A DNA stretch of 5,102 nucleotides from Acidobacteriota bacterium (lineage in GTDB: Bacteria; Acidobacteriota; Terriglobia; Acidoferrales; UBA7541). Where the stretch lies: contig JAFAZL010000381.1 in the NCBI GenBank assembly GCA_019239815.1, forward strand, positions 1 through 5,102, written 5' to 3'. This document shows, in pieces, positions 1 through 3,638 of the stretch; the first letter of the stretch is position 1; every line of letters starts with the position of its first letter. Below the pieces are notes generated by a model. That model did no database searches and was not told the origin of the DNA. It saw only the letters and a program-made list of their open reading frames with translations. The position numbers and the translations under genes are program-made.

Positions 1-286
1 CGAGGTGCCAGCGCGCCGCTTCAGCATAGGTCTTGCCCGAAGAACGCTCGGATGCCGCAACCGCAGTGAGCTCAAACCACGGATGATTCGCGAGCAGTTT
101 CACGAGTCGCTGCCCAACGAGACCGGTTGCACCGAGCACGCCGGCGCGCCACTTGCGTGATCCACGCGGCGTTTGCTGCGTCAACATCTGCACATATTCC
201 AGATGTCTTTTCGGCGCGAAATCGCGTTCATCCGTGAGTGAGATTTCGTGTGTTTCAAAAACTTCACCTTGCCATTGACCGCTCAC
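1..286 (-). CDS. asd: Aspartate-semialdehyde dehydrogenase, N-terminal part (runs off the left edge)
   Basis: This enzyme reduces 4-aspartyl phosphate to aspartate semialdehyde with NADPH, the step after aspartokinase on the way to lysine, threonine, methionine and isoleucine. Only the first 95 codons are present. The Rossmann nucleotide-binding motif [10 protein letters not shown] lies at residues 52-61, followed by [20 protein letters not shown] at about 67-86, the pattern of the archaeal/fungal-type ASADH rather than the E. coli type. The GTG start overlaps the aspartokinase TGA in a GTGA junction, and an AGGAAGG ribosome site lies six bases upstream (293-299), inside the end of the aspartokinase gene, so translational coupling is likely. 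This start gives about 48 residues before the Rossmann strand, whereas family members usually begin just before it. An internal ATG at 185-187 is an alternative but has no clear ribosome site. Family assignment is strong; the exact start is less certain. Confidence 0.92.
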
Positions 287-1431
287 GCTGCACCTTCCTG
301 GGATTGAGATTGTGAATTCCGTTGCGATTGCGACTGCGGCCGGAGTTTCGTCCCGATGCGTGTGCCACGAGTTTGCGGCTTGAACGTATTGCGAACCCAG
401 ACGGTCATCTCCGTCGAAGCGGCAAGCGGGAGTACATGCGGATGCAGAACTTTTGCTCCGCTTGCTGCAAGTGCATGCGCTTCGTCGTAGCTCAAGTCAT
501 GTAAGAGTTGGGCCTGCGCGTCTTCGTTGGGATTCGCGGTGTAAATTCCATCGACGTCGGTCCAGATCACGAGTTCGTCCGCATCGACGACGTGCGCGAT
601 GATCGCTCCGGAAAAGTCGGAGCTGTTGCGGCCGAGCGTAGTAATACGTCCGTCGGGCGTTGCGCCGATGAAACCGGTGACGACGGGAACGATGCCGTCT
701 TCGAGCAGCGGCGTGAGCGCGGCGCGGCCGCGGCGCTTCGTCTGTTCGAGGTGCGGTTTCGCATCGCGGAATGTGTCACAGGTCAAAACGAAGTCGGACG
801 ATGCGACCGGAACCGCGGAGACGCCGACACATTCGAGAGCGGCGGCGAAGAGCCTCGCGCTCAGTCGTTCACCGAACGATGCGAGCCGATCGAAAAGCTC
901 CGGCGATGCGACGACGGATTCGCGCGCGGGAACCGCATGCAACAAATCGCGGCCGAGCGAATCGAGTTCGCGCGATACACGATCGTGCGCGACGGCTTCG
1001 AGCCCGAGTTCGAGCAGCGCATCGTGATGCAATCGAAGTACGAGTTCGGCTTCGACGCGCGCGCGGAAATTTTGGCGGTCGGCCAGGAATTGCGCGATCC
1101 CGAGCAGCCTGTCGGTTACGCCTTTCATCGCCGAAACAACAACGACTACGTTTGAATTTTCAGCAACGGGCTTGACGAGTTCTGCGGCGTGCAACATCCG
1201 CGCTGCACCAAGCAGCGAAGTCCCTCCAAATTTGAAAGCGACGATTTCCTTGCGACAACAACCAAGCGAAATGGCTTCTTCGGACTTCGTAAGCGCGCGA
1301 GTTTCACGCGCCGCACGATGTTCACTACTACACGACGTAGTAGCTTCGCCGCTCACGAGCAATGCGGGGACTAAACGCGGGGATAAGTCACCCTCCGCGG
1401 ATGATTCTGACTGGACGTTTCTGGCGTTCAT
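283..1431 (-). CDS. lysC: Aspartokinase, catalytic domain only (no ACT domains)
   Basis: It phosphorylates aspartate with ATP, the committed step of the aspartate family of amino acids. The amino-acid-kinase motifs appear in order: KFGGTS at residues 67-72, [11 protein letters not shown] at 100-110, GERLSARLF at 187-195, [20 protein letters not shown] at 253-272, [12 protein letters not shown] at 290-301, ASGAKVLHP at 323-331 and [13 protein letters not shown] at 347-359. The protein ends about 20 residues later in a Gln/Ser-rich tail (residues 365-379), so the paired ACT domains that normally follow and bind lysine or threonine are absent. Residues 1-62 form a polar N-terminal extension with no recognisable domain. 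The ATG is chosen because GGAG sits seven bases upstream (1439-1442); no downstream in-frame ATG, GTG or TTG before KFGGTS has a good ribosome site. It is the first structural gene after a Thr/Ile attenuator and is followed directly by asd. The symbol lysC is by family; threonine-type regulation would also fit a thrA-like role. Confidence 0.93.
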
Positions 1432-1478
1432 GGTGCCGCTCCGTTTGGGTTCCGCTGGAGCGACTCTGGAGGGGAGTT

Positions 1479-1519
1479 AAAGAAAAAACCCACCGCCAGG
1501 TTCGCTTCGGCGGGGGTTT
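1479..1519 (-). terminator. Intrinsic terminator of the attenuator, between leader peptide and lysC
   Basis: The minus-strand RNA reads AAACCCCCGCC (1509-1519), an 11-base loop, then GGCGGTGGGTTT (1486-1497). This forms an 11-bp GC-rich stem with one bulged base, with the T-tract TTTTTTCTTT running from 1488 to 1479. The T-tract is on the minus side only, so it terminates transcripts heading into lysC. No minus-strand gene lies upstream that would need it, other than the leader peptide ending 18 bases earlier. That makes it a regulated terminator rather than an operon end. Confidence 0.85.
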
Positions 1520-1627
1520 GAAACTTTTGGGAACTTTCTAGTTTCTAGCCTCGCCGTTAGCCGTAATCGACTTCGTCGTAGTCGAAATAATCGACGACGT
1601 CGAGGTAGTCATGCGCTTAGCGGCGAG
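1509..1627 (-). promoter_or_regulatory. Transcription attenuator: 1:2 hairpin and alternative antiterminator
   Basis: Three mutually exclusive pairings can be drawn on the minus-strand RNA. Segment 1, CTCGCCGCTAAGC (1615-1627), pairs with segment 2, GCTAACGGCGAG (1550-1561): seven perfect pairs (CTCGCCG:CGGCGAG) plus UA:UA and GC:GC around one mismatch and one bulge. This brackets the Thr/Ile codons. Segment 2, extended as GGCGAGGCTAGAAAC (1541-1555), can instead pair imperfectly with segment 3, GTTTCAAACCCCCGCC (1509-1524). Segment 3 contains the 5' arm of the terminator. A ribosome stalled on Thr/Ile codons would cover segment 1, free segment 2 and favour the antiterminator. A ribosome reaching the TAG would cover segment 2 and let the terminator form. 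Without translation, 1:2 forms and the terminator wins. This follows the established thr/his/trp attenuation logic; the pairings were drawn by eye without energy calculation. Confidence 0.72.
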
Positions 1628-1639
1628 AGAAAGATTCAT
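1538..1639 (-). CDS. Thr/Ile-rich leader peptide of the aspartokinase-asd attenuator (33 aa)
   Basis: This short reading frame starts at ATG 1637-1639 and ends at TAG 1538-1540. Residues 11-26 read TTSTSSIISTTTKSIT: 7 Thr, 3 Ile, 5 Ser and 1 Lys in 16 codons. It is preceded by KRM and followed by ANGEARN. The arrangement resembles E. coli thrL (KRISTTITTTITITT followed by GNGAG), whose Thr and Ile codons stall ribosomes when the cognate charged tRNAs are scarce. The peptide lies 18 bases before the start of an intrinsic terminator hairpin and about 100 bases before the aspartokinase start, the position expected of a leader. No Shine-Dalgarno sequence precedes the first ATG. The predicted transcription start is only a few bases upstream, so initiation may be leaderless. 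A second in-frame ATG (1610-1612) would give a 24-residue form, also without a clear ribosome site. The peptide probably has no function apart from being translated. Confidence 0.78.
   Translation of the reverse strand: MNLSLAAKRMTTSTSSIISTTTKSITANGEARN
1567..1603 (-). promoter_or_regulatory. Hairpin within the control codons of the leader
   Basis: The Thr/Ser/Ile codon run can fold on itself. TCGACGTCGTCGA (1591-1603) pairs with TCGACTACGACGAAGTCGA (1567-1585) to give 13 base pairs, with two three-base bulges on the 3' arm and a five-base loop TTATT (1586-1590). It nests inside the 1:2 stem and would extend that structure into a long pause hairpin. Some of the pairing is an unavoidable result of repeated TCG and ACG codons, so its role is uncertain. 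Confidence 0.45.
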
Positions 1640-1649
1640 ACCGAGAGTG

Positions 1650-1677
1650 AAGTTAGCACGGCGGAGAAGAACGTCAA
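1650..1677 (-). promoter_or_regulatory. Candidate sigma70-type promoter of the leader-lysC-asd operon
   Basis: On the minus strand TTGACG (1672-1677, five of six bases of the -35 consensus) is followed after 16 bases by TAACTT (1650-1655). The -10 box matches only three of six consensus bases but is preceded by TGC, which gives an extended -10. Transcription would begin near 1642-1644, just ahead of the leader ATG at 1639. The position fits an attenuator transcript well, but the call rests on short motifs only. Confidence 0.5.
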
Positions 1678-2157: not shown

Positions 2158-3573
2158 ATGAAACCGAAGAAGTGGCTTGGTGCAATTGTGGGCGTTGTAG
2201 CTCTAGGAGTTGGGTTAACCGGTTGTGGGGGCGGCGGGACGTCGCCTTCTTCAACTACGACGACAGCGCAGAGTGGGCAGGTGTTCGTGAGCGGCACCGA
2301 TGCGCCGTTGGCGAGCGTGCTGTCGTTTCAAGTCGACATCACGGGTATGACCGTGTCGGATGGGGTTAACCCGCCGATTTCGGTCCTAAACGGTACGCAG
2401 ACCGTCGATTTCGCGCGGTTGAACGGACTCCACACACTGCTGGACATCAATTCGATTCCGGCCGGCACTTATAGCAGCGTCACAATGACGTTTGCCAACC
2501 CGCAAATCTCGTTTATGAATGTCACCAATCCGCAGACGACTCCGCCGACGCGCCCGACGATCACGACGCTCAATACAACGTCTTCGCCAGCAGCGACGCT
2601 GACGCAGTCGTCGGTGACGGCGCCGCTTGCGAGCCCGCTCACGGTGACTGCGAATGAGGTGATCGGTTTGTCGTTCGATTTCGATCTGAAGGATTCGGTG
2701 GCCGTGGACGGCAACGGACAGATCACCGGCGCCGTCAATCCGATGGTGACACTGAAAGCGGTGACACCGGACAACGATGACGCCTATATCGACGACTTCG
2801 TCGCGGGCGTGGTCAGCACCGGCTCGAGCTCATTCCTCATCCAAGGTCCACACGGCCATCAATTCACGGTCAACGTGAACGACCAGACGGAGTGGGAAAA
2901 CAACGAGAGCATCTCAAACCTGACGAGCACGTCGATTGTAGAAGTGTCGGGCACGCTGGATCGCACCTCTGGAGCGATCCTCGCGGACACGATTGCAATC
3001 GTGTCGCAAGATAAATTCTGGGCCGGCGGTTTGATCACGTACGTCGATCCGACCTCGGGCGCAGCGAACGACTTCGATCTCTATGTTCGCAGCGTTCTTC
3101 CGACTGGAACCGGATTTACCTCCGGCCAGATTTCGACGATCGATCTGAGCGGAAACGAAAACTACTTCATCTATTTCTGGCACAACAAATTCACCAACCT
3201 GCTGTTTAACTCGAGCCTGATGGTTCCTGGGCAGCACATCAGCATCGCCGGACCGCTGAGCAACGGAGCGGTGACGGTGAAGCGAGTGGTGTTGCGCGCC
3301 GAAGGACACACCGGCTCGTGGGTTGTCGGCAGCACGAACACCGGGGCCGGCACATTCCAATTCAACTCGAATGGAGTGGCGGGCGTGCTCTTTAACGGGC
3401 CGATCACGGTGTACTGCACGCCTTTCACGAAGTTCAAGGGCGGTTTGACCGGACTAGGCAGCATCACGGGTACCACGGCGCTCAACCTTCGCGTCGTGGG
3501 CCTGGTGCTGCGCGATCCGATCAGCGGGCAGGCAGTGTTCGTGGCGCATAGCGTCGAGCAGATGTCGAACTAA
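2158..3573 (+). CDS. DUF4382 lipoprotein with DUF5666-like C-terminal repeats
   Basis: This 471-residue secreted lipoprotein has no known biochemical function. Residues 1-23 form a lipoprotein signal: positive KPKK, a hydrophobic stretch and the lipobox LTGC with the lipidated Cys at 23. A Gly/Ser/Thr linker follows (24-40). Residues 41-200 match the DUF4382 pattern: QVFVSGTDAPLASVLSFQVD, then a conserved DFARLNG around 84-90 and DINSIPAGTYSSVTMTF at 96-112. Residues about 215-285 look like a DUF5666 beta-barrel unit (VVSTGSSSFLIQGPHGHQFT, then SIVEVSGTLDRTSGAILADT). Two further stretches, about 286-380 and 385-468, have the same weak beta-rich layout. The ATG at 2158 is chosen over an in-frame GTG at 2083 because it has AAGGA eight bases upstream and puts the signal peptide at the N-terminus. 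The gene appears to be a single transcription unit closed by its own terminator. Confidence 0.9.
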   Translation: MKPKKWLGAIVGVVALGVGLTGCGGGGTSPSSTTTTAQSGQVFVSGTDAPLASVLSFQVDITGMTVSDGVNPPISVLNGTQTVDFARLNGLHTLLDINSIPAGTYSSVTMTFANPQISFMNVTNPQTTPPTRPTITTLNTTSSPAATLTQSSVTAPLASPLTVTANEVIGLSFDFDLKDSVAVDGNGQITGAVNPMVTLKAVTPDNDDAYIDDFVAGVVSTGSSSFLIQGPHGHQFTVNVNDQTEWENNESISNLTSTSIVEVSGTLDRTSGAILADTIAIVSQDKFWAGGLITYVDPTSGAANDFDLYVRSVLPTGTGFTSGQISTIDLSGNENYFIYFWHNKFTNLLFNSSLMVPGQHISIAGPLSNGAVTVKRVVLRAEGHTGSWVVGSTNTGAGTFQFNSNGVAGVLFNGPITVYCTPFTKFKGGLTGLGSITGTTALNLRVVGLVLRDPISGQAVFVAHSVEQMSN

Positions 3574-3601
3574 ATGTTGTCGATGAGTGTTGTTCATAGG
3601 G

Positions 3602-3638
3602 CGGCCACCTCGGACGTTCGAGGTGGCCGTTTTATTTT
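3602..3638 (+). terminator. Intrinsic terminator of the lipoprotein gene
   Basis: CGGCCACCTCG (3602-3612) and CGAGGTGGCCG (3619-3629) form a perfect 11-bp stem with a six-base loop, followed by TTTTATTTT (3630-3638). It begins 28 bases after the TAA stop. The T-tract is on the plus strand; the minus-strand reading has none, so it does not obviously serve the convergent oxidoreductase gene. Confidence 0.92.

Follow-up and report, generated by a model that had tools for sequence, protein, structure and literature searches.

A predicted ribosome-mediated attenuator with threonine and isoleucine control codons ahead of an aspartokinase-asd operon in Acidobacteria

Introduction

Most descriptions of ribosome-mediated attenuation concern Proteobacteria and Actinobacteria, and thrL of E. 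coli, which encodes a Thr/Ile leader peptide ahead of thrABC, is the described system closest to the locus analyzed here. A Thr_leader ahead of thrA of Shewanella is also mentioned in PMC2659441. According to a survey from 2010, amino-acid leader peptides were known only from Proteobacteria and Actinobacteria, to which a Bacillus His case was then added; the same survey predicted attenuators in acidobacteria, and almost none there had an associated function (PMC2965389). Among leaders with Cys codons, those of mycobacteria are presented without a conserved terminator hairpin in PMC1262725, and uORFC-8-2 ahead of cysS is presented in PMC8632094 as a case of one gene, one order (Rhodobacterales) and two tandem Cys codons. 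For trpL of Sinorhizobium meliloti, a leader mRNA beginning at the start codon of the attenuator peptide is on record in PMC7298713.

Here we analyze 5,102 nt of contig JAFAZL010000381.1 (the window), in which the attenuator, an aspartokinase gene and asd all lie on the minus strand. With a probability of roughly 0.88, judged from sequence and modelled folding, we take the region ahead of aspartokinase to be a ribosome-mediated transcription attenuator of the aspartokinase-asd operon, in which the start site, the stalling of the ribosome, the termination and the response to amino acids are predicted events. The support for this reading comes from the conserved parts, the codon bias, the covariation of two stems in a wider group of leaders, the position of the promoter-like element and the gene context.

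Results

Organization of the locus

Read along the minus strand, the elements follow each other in the order TTGACG, extended -10 element, leader ORF, hairpin with U tract, GGAGCG, aspartokinase and asd. The features are:

1672..1677, minus strand: -35-like element TTGACG, 16-nt spacer to the -10 element, absent from the list of the consensus scan
1650..1658, minus strand: extended -10 element TGCTAACTT, 10 nt ahead of the leader ATG
1538..1639, minus strand: leader peptide ORF of 33 codons, MNLSLAAKRMTTSTSSIISTTTKSITANGEARN, ATG at 1639-1637 and TAG at 1540-1538
1613..1630, minus strand: segment 1, the protector strand, whose core CTCGCCG pairs with CGGCGAG of segment 2; at 1627-1615 it reads CTCGCCGCTAAGC
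1562..1609, minus strand: control codons 11-26, comprising 7 Thr, 3 Ile, 1 Lys and 5 Ser
1541..1561, minus strand: segment 2, GCTAACGGCGAGGCTAGAAAC, identified by folds, the alignment of relatives and ribosome-position folds
1509..1524, minus strand: segment 3, GTTTCAAACCCCCGCC, antiterminator partner and 5' terminator arm by folds and covariation
1498..1508, minus strand: terminator loop GAAGCGAACCT, whose AAGCG echoes segment 1 and lengthens the 2:3 pairing
1479..1497, minus strand: segment 4 GGCGGTGGGTTT (1497-1486) and U tract TTTTTTCTTT, a predicted intrinsic terminator by folds and covariation
1457..1462, minus strand: conserved CGCTCC about 16 nt past the U tract, complementary to the aspartokinase ribosome-binding site
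1437..1442, minus strand: Shine-Dalgarno sequence of aspartokinase, GGAGCG, read from the sequence
283..1431, minus strand: aspartokinase of 382 aa without ACT domain
2..286, minus strand: aspartate-semialdehyde dehydrogenase (asd), N-terminal 95 aa, overlapping the end of aspartokinase

The original prediction had described a leader of 33 codons with 7 Thr and 3 Ile codons in 16 residues, which are residues 11-26 on the minus strand, and had assigned segments 1, 2 and 3 and a terminator arm with mutually exclusive pairings; all of these were read as given. It had missed that the terminator loop (1508-1498) joins the antiterminator and that no more than 10 nt separate the start codon from an extended -10 element upstream. 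Neither the promoter nor the terminator of the window was listed by simple scans, the former because its -10 (TAACTT) is weak by E. coli rules and the latter because its loop of 9 nt exceeds the 3-8 nt allowed.

In the aspartokinase, a Pfam profile search found AA_kinase only and no ACT domain. The fragment of asd gave its best matches to PRK08664 and TIGR00978 asd_EA, which fits the archaeal type proposed for it; both remained under the cut-offs, as expected for a fragment. In six relatives, judged from ORFs alone, the end of aspartokinase likewise overlaps asd downstream, and these six show no other evident gene shared in the same direction. The aspartokinases share a conserved N-terminal peptide, M(S/N)..NVQ.E..AEGDLSP (window 1431 to ~1380), followed by a variable linker and the kinase domain. 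By eye, the part of the gene encoding this linker carries inverted repeats such as CCCCGCCGC...GCGGCGGGG in L004, L007, L010, L013 and others, where the window has CTACTACGTCGTGTAGTAG instead (1325-1343, minus strand). Elsewhere in the window, the plus strand encodes at 2158-3573 a putative secreted protein that matches DUF4382 and, below threshold, DUF5666; a terminator-like hairpin comes next at ~3600-3635.

Distribution of the leader

A protein search listed the best 120 close aspartokinases, one of them named Candidatus Acidiferrum. With an alignment of the window protein and 19 relatives as query, a scan across 84,980 species, each represented by a single genome, gave 104 relatives. The best 80 were retained, and 22 among them were close (at least 64% identity). 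By title, the close loci belong to Acidobacteria (19) and to Candidatus Acidiferrum, Terriglobia and Betaproteobacteria (one each), the betaproteobacterial one (L001) probably being a mislabelled bin. A related leader was found ahead of aspartokinase in all 22, in 18 by ORF scan and in four (L002, L004, L005, L007), whose frames run on upstream, by reading all frames. The comparison of upstream regions thus went in favour of the original prediction, with Thr/Ile codons, pairings and terminator kept in 22/22 loci. The other 58 kept loci (~40% identity, mostly Chloroflexota, four titled Acidobacteria or Acidoferrales) gave no match to two RNA models up to E 0.1, so that the leader is tied to one aspartokinase lineage and not to all acidobacterial aspartokinases.

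A covariance model built from 23 leaders (R1) matched 33/399 genomes of the class of L004 at E below 1e-20, 22 of the 33 being genomes already seen; since the number of candidates scored per genome is small in any search covering more than 40 genomes, absence in the remaining 366/399 is weak evidence. In a phylum sample of 396 genomes, a strong match was obtained in the centre genome only, and two others matched at E ~9e-4. Altogether, 34 leaders including the window were assembled, 31 of them ahead of aspartokinase and three directly ahead of asd (L106, L110, L113). In these three, aspartokinase is no longer at its usual position, and asd has retained the leader. The asd of L110 (1501-2484) begins with an aspartokinase-type N-terminus and has the Thr leader directly ahead; in L113 (3232-4635) the Thr leader also directly precedes asd, with no aspartokinase at the usual place.

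A putative leaderless start

The pattern TGnTAnnnT ends 6-12 nt ahead of the start codon in 33/33 leaders (L106 left out), compared to a mean of 0.34 and a maximum of 3 of 33 in 500 mononucleotide shuffles; the pattern was picked after viewing the sequences, and the 33/33 is therefore a post hoc count. A Shine-Dalgarno-like word precedes the leader in only one of the 33. As the extended -10 element of the window lies so near the ATG, transcription is predicted to start at ~1643, leaving a 5'UTR of ~0-5 nt, and the window leader is probably leaderless or nearly so.

Pairing segments and folding energy

A typical relative encodes the peptide MLSIATKRITPKSSMSTTSTTTKTTISASGAWRNS (L004). Its family carries a segment 1 such as UCCAUCGCC-AC-GAAGCGAA, with the codons SIATKRI, that pairs with a segment 2 such as UUUCCGCUUC-GGGCG-C-GUGGA, with the codons ASGAWR. 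The alternative partners of segment 2 are segment 3 and the terminator loop, by the pairs CGCUUC:GAAGCG (loop), GGCG:CGCC, GUGG:CCAC and GAAAC:GUUUC, and segment 3 forms the terminator with segment 4. GAAGCG is present in the terminator loop and AAGCG in segment 1 of 22/23 aligned leaders each; segments 1 and 3-plus-loop thus compete for segment 2 as near copies. The window keeps this plan in different letters: GGC, CGGCG, GG and GAAAC take part in its own 2:3 fold, and its aligned columns keep 11/18 pairs of 1:2, 13/19 of 2:3 and 10/11 of 3:4. Antiterminator and terminator of the window are mutually exclusive, according to the folds and to covariation in the wider group.

The predicted fold of 1642-1478 reached -56.6 kcal/mol compared to -42.5 ± 4.0 for dinucleotide shuffles (z -3.5, 0/200 as low). 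The terminator alone (hairpin with U tract, 1520-1479, minus strand), originally placed directly ahead of aspartokinase as is now found, gave -19.3 kcal/mol (z -2.9, 1/200 as low), and the antiterminator region -18.0 kcal/mol (z -2.2, 6/200). It is the conservation of a related leader in 22/22 close loci, and not the folding energy, that tells against chance. Synonymous recoding of the window leader lowered the 2:3 pairing from 14.8 to 9.1 ± 3.8 pairs, with 1/200 recodings as high; the mean 2:3 pairing was cut by random synonymous recoding in 11/11 leaders tested, where 0 to 34 of 200 recodings matched the real leader.

Proposed mechanism and ribosome-position folds

In the proposed mechanism, transcription would begin a few nucleotides ahead of the leader ATG, and a ribosome would start on the nearly leaderless RNA. 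When tRNA-Thr and tRNA-Ile, and probably also tRNA-Lys and tRNA-Met, are plentiful in charged form, the ribosome would reach the stop codon and cover segment 2, leaving segments 3 and 4 to form the terminator at 1520-1479. When the charged tRNAs are scarce, it would stall within the first 24 codons, with segment 1 covered or kept from segment 2; before the synthesis of segment 4, segment 2 would then engage segment 3 together with the terminator loop, and RNA polymerase would read on into aspartokinase. If translation does not take place at all, 1:2 would form and segment 3 would be free to terminate.

For 33 leaders (L106 left out), the RNA downstream of an assumed ribosome footprint was folded, ignoring upstream RNA. 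With the ribosome in the control codons and before segment 4 is made, an average of 12-19 expected 2:3 pairs was obtained in 33/33 leaders; with the ribosome at the stop codon, no 2:3 pairing and a terminator of 8-9 pairs (3:4) were obtained in 33/33. The folds thus give the logic of an attenuator, as had been proposed. In the RNA free of ribosomes, 1:2 formed with at least 5 pairs before synthesis of segment 4 in 8/33 leaders, including the window; once complete, the RNA had at least 8 terminator pairs in 27/33. At full-length equilibrium the terminator of the window forms despite a stalled ribosome (mean 7.8 pairs), and likewise in many other leaders, so that the control must be kinetic, settled during RNA synthesis. 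Of the codons for Thr, Ile, Lys or Met, 505/548 fall within the zone where stalling would leave the antiterminator free to form, compared to 306/617 of all others (33 stop codons included; 33 leaders), a contrast that is partly built in because segment 2 itself codes for ASGAWRN.

A wider group sharing segments 2-3-4

The weaker R1 matches that were read turned out to be other leaders with a similar core. A core model (R2) was built from 20 sequences, three of them aspartokinase-asd leaders and the window excluded. It matched 123/399 genomes of the class at E 1e-4 or better and 12/297 genomes of a phylum sample sharing genomes with the class sample. The window, although not used in building R2, matched at 1588-1480 with E 8.5e-8, the weakest of 100 matches.

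The 117 wider-group loci comprise the 17 best of 32 weaker R1 matches and 100 among the R2 matches listed. In 92/117, at least 4 Cys codons fall within a 14-codon window, compared to 6/117 on the reverse strand and 3/115 in downstream control stretches, leader frames being taken over all three frames. Cys codons are thus read by the commonest members of the group, of which the aspartokinase-asd leader is one branch; such leaders are present in L116, L120-L122, L124-L128, L130 and most of L168-L267. Behind the leader, the 114 loci with a long ORF have rhodanese-type sulfurtransferases (35), nitrite/sulfite reductases (24), CysD (20), aspartokinases (8), sulfonate binding proteins (3) and smaller clusters, the clusters being named from one or a few profile-searched members (L126; L125 and L129; L120; L114, L115 and L117; L116). 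CysG-like and CysK-like neighbours were seen at L236, L239 and L267, named by eye only.

Thr/Met/Ile leaders precede ACT-bearing aspartokinases in L114 and L115, with homoserine dehydrogenase next in L114. The leader MNSRRITMSMTTTGTIMSTARPAEGDI of L119 is accompanied by an aspartokinase and a homoserine dehydrogenase-like gene (by eye) and a threonine synthase fragment (by profile). In L117 (minus strand, ~2758-2934), itself among the 117 loci, a Thr/Met leader stands ahead of an ACT-less aspartokinase with a terminator hairpin that lacks a U tract, by assembly error or real variation. L129 has a Thr/Met/Cys leader ahead of a sulfite reductase-type gene and asd, and carries a SAM riboswitch (RF00162, 73 bits) at 2643-2756 on the minus strand. 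In ten loci no Rfam match over the gathering score was found at the leader; the SAM riboswitch of L129, like the tRNAs of L116 and L126, is located away from the leader.

Covariation of the stems

Within the aspartokinase family, 1:2 is paired in 82.3% of cells over 23 sequences, and no covariation beyond shuffles was observed across them. The 2:3 stem is paired in 95.4% and shows no double changes within the family, because it is almost invariant. In 20 sequences of the wider group, 4 double-change cells of 2:3 compare to 1.5 in shuffles. In 100 related cores, chosen by us from the loci at hand and including 8 leaders of the aspartokinase-asd family, 2:3 had 32 double-change cells compared to 14.3 ± 3.1 in shuffles (0/500 as high), distributed over 6/9 pairs; slid versions had 1 to 17 cells, which argues against the possibility that related sequences beat shuffles without any structure. 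As 3:4 was the only one of these stems in the model to which the alignment was fitted, the 2:3 covariation is an independent test. The 3:4 stem was paired in 99.3%, with 10 double-change cells compared to 0.6 in shuffles. The compensatory changes that the original prediction had looked for in all three stems were therefore seen for 2:3 and 3:4, across the wider group only, and not for 1:2, which is the weakest part of the attenuator.

Control codons and the signals read

Lys, Thr, Met and Ile all derive from a precursor that aspartokinase and asd produce, whereas Asn branches off earlier. The 645 control codons of the 34 leaders consist of Thr (254), Ser (151), Ile (93), Lys (64), Met (37), Ala (18) and others (28); 448 of them thus specify Thr, Ile, Lys or Met, an enrichment for the products of the operon. 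The Thr/Ile control codons originally proposed are confirmed but incomplete, as Lys and Met codons are also present in the control region. Compared to the base frequencies per codon position, Ile is above expectation (93 vs 51.5), Thr somewhat under it (254 vs 302.8), and Leu (2 vs 18.6) and Phe (1 vs 17.4) far below.

It is possible, at odds clearly short of even, that the attenuator senses Thr (and Ile) only, the Lys, Met and Ser codons being filler that lies one base from ACG/ACT or is required for RNA folding. Thr is indeed the commonest control codon, Met (37 vs 44.5), Arg (4 vs 5.7) and Pro (7 vs 10.0) occur about as base composition predicts or slightly less, and 4/34 leaders have no Lys codon. 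This reading is opposed by a Lys:Asn ratio of 64:1 where 22.7:25.6 is expected, a bias that fits an aspartokinase-asd trunk feeding Thr, Ile, Lys and Met. Thinning by similarity left 20 leaders, in which 29 AAR and 0 AAY codons were counted, and 0/5000 third-base shuffles reached 29. Lys is furthermore present in 30/34 and Met in 31/34 control regions, counts that are less than independent owing to shared descent. The codon content therefore suggests Thr and Ile as the main inputs and Lys as a likely further input of the attenuator, with a weaker case for Met. The Ser codons (151/645) do not follow from the pathway; folding constraints on UCGA words are one guess.

Other modes of control

Translational control, in which CGCTCC past the terminator would mask the ribosome-binding site of aspartokinase, appears unlikely. 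A 5-nt complement of this site is present in 29/32 relatives with loops of 9-52 nt (L106 was left out of this count, as was the window, which has the complement by eye but whose site does not fit the pattern), but z was below -2 in 2/32 only and most loci fold no better than shuffles. With its complement conserved and its energy not special, masking was rejected as the main control; it would also leave the leader ORF and the terminator unexplained.

Quite improbable is a main function of the leader RNA or peptide in trans, comparable to rnTrpL/peTrpL of Sinorhizobium meliloti. In its favour, 33 relatives encode a similar peptide, and PMC7298713 describes a leader mRNA that is leaderless and has roles in trans; the conserved stretches SIATKRI and ASGAWRN, however, coincide with RNA segments 1 and 2, and the window retains the pairing with different residues. 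We regard it as very improbable that the terminator works without a ribosome, by fixed partial termination or protein control, with the ORF as by-product: it is strong and forms in many leaders even under a stalled ribosome at equilibrium, but reading frame, codon content and a start 6-12 nt behind the extended -10 element are all conserved, and Cys codons are present in same-core leaders that stand ahead of sulfur genes.

Discussion

Ribosome-mediated attenuation of the aspartokinase-asd operon would be a known mechanism, classical attenuation, in a chassis and a phylum for which we found no description in the literature covered. The full-text literature searched, in which most subscription papers are missing, yielded no description of an acidobacterial aspartokinase-asd attenuator. 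The original prediction of a possibly independent or undescribed case holds to this extent; the leader is not isolated, however, being one branch of a wider group.

More tentatively, with chances a little under even, we propose that the class possesses a modular attenuator, in which a leaderless 2-3-4 chassis with a loop imitating segment 1 is fitted with exchangeable control codons, the aspartokinase-asd version having four inputs. Cys codons would serve sulfur assimilation and Thr/Met/Ile codons the aspartokinase-homoserine dehydrogenase operons; the aspartokinase-asd leader might read Thr, Ile, Lys and Met in place of the enzyme feedback of the missing ACT domain. The picture is one of attenuation as a device both widespread and reusable, in a soil phylum whose gene regulation is little known. 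The findings would link an ACT-less aspartokinase to control by tRNA charging, provide a natural setting in which to test whether several amino acids can be integrated by a single leader, and make the evolution of attenuators traceable through codon exchange on one RNA chassis.

No match to the Thr_leader model RF00506, to a riboswitch or to a T-box was found in the window up to E 5, in agreement with the supposition that the locus lies outside the known thr leaders. A riboswitch, a T-box or another Rfam element at the locus was rejected for want of a credible match. RF00506 exceeded its cut-off in 0/151 genomes of the class compared to 1/14 control genomes; weak matches in 68/151 class genomes were dismissed as noise, all of them lying below the cut-off and many on both strands of one palindrome.

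Compared to trpL of Sinorhizobium meliloti, an alphaproteobacterial Trp leader ahead of trpE(G), the start site of the window is only predicted. The Cys leaders of the wider group resemble the actinobacterial cys-operon leaders and uORFC-8-2 of Rhodobacterales in that a short leader ahead of sulfur or Cys genes contains Cys codons; unlike those, the acidobacterial ones share their segment 2-3-4 core with the Thr leader. With thrL/RF00506 of gammaproteobacteria, the window shares a leader with Thr/Ile codons, exclusive hairpins and an intrinsic terminator ahead of an aspartokinase gene, and thus the same presumed logic. The resemblance in peptide sequence that had also been pointed out is best read as convergence, since the conserved KRI and ASG are RNA segments 1 and 2; homology to E. 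coli thrL is not claimed, as the likeness sits where RNA pairing dictates the codons. The window family differs from thrL in its probably leaderless start, its Lys/Met codons, an antiterminator reaching into the terminator loop, and an ACT-less aspartokinase with asd downstream instead of thrABC.
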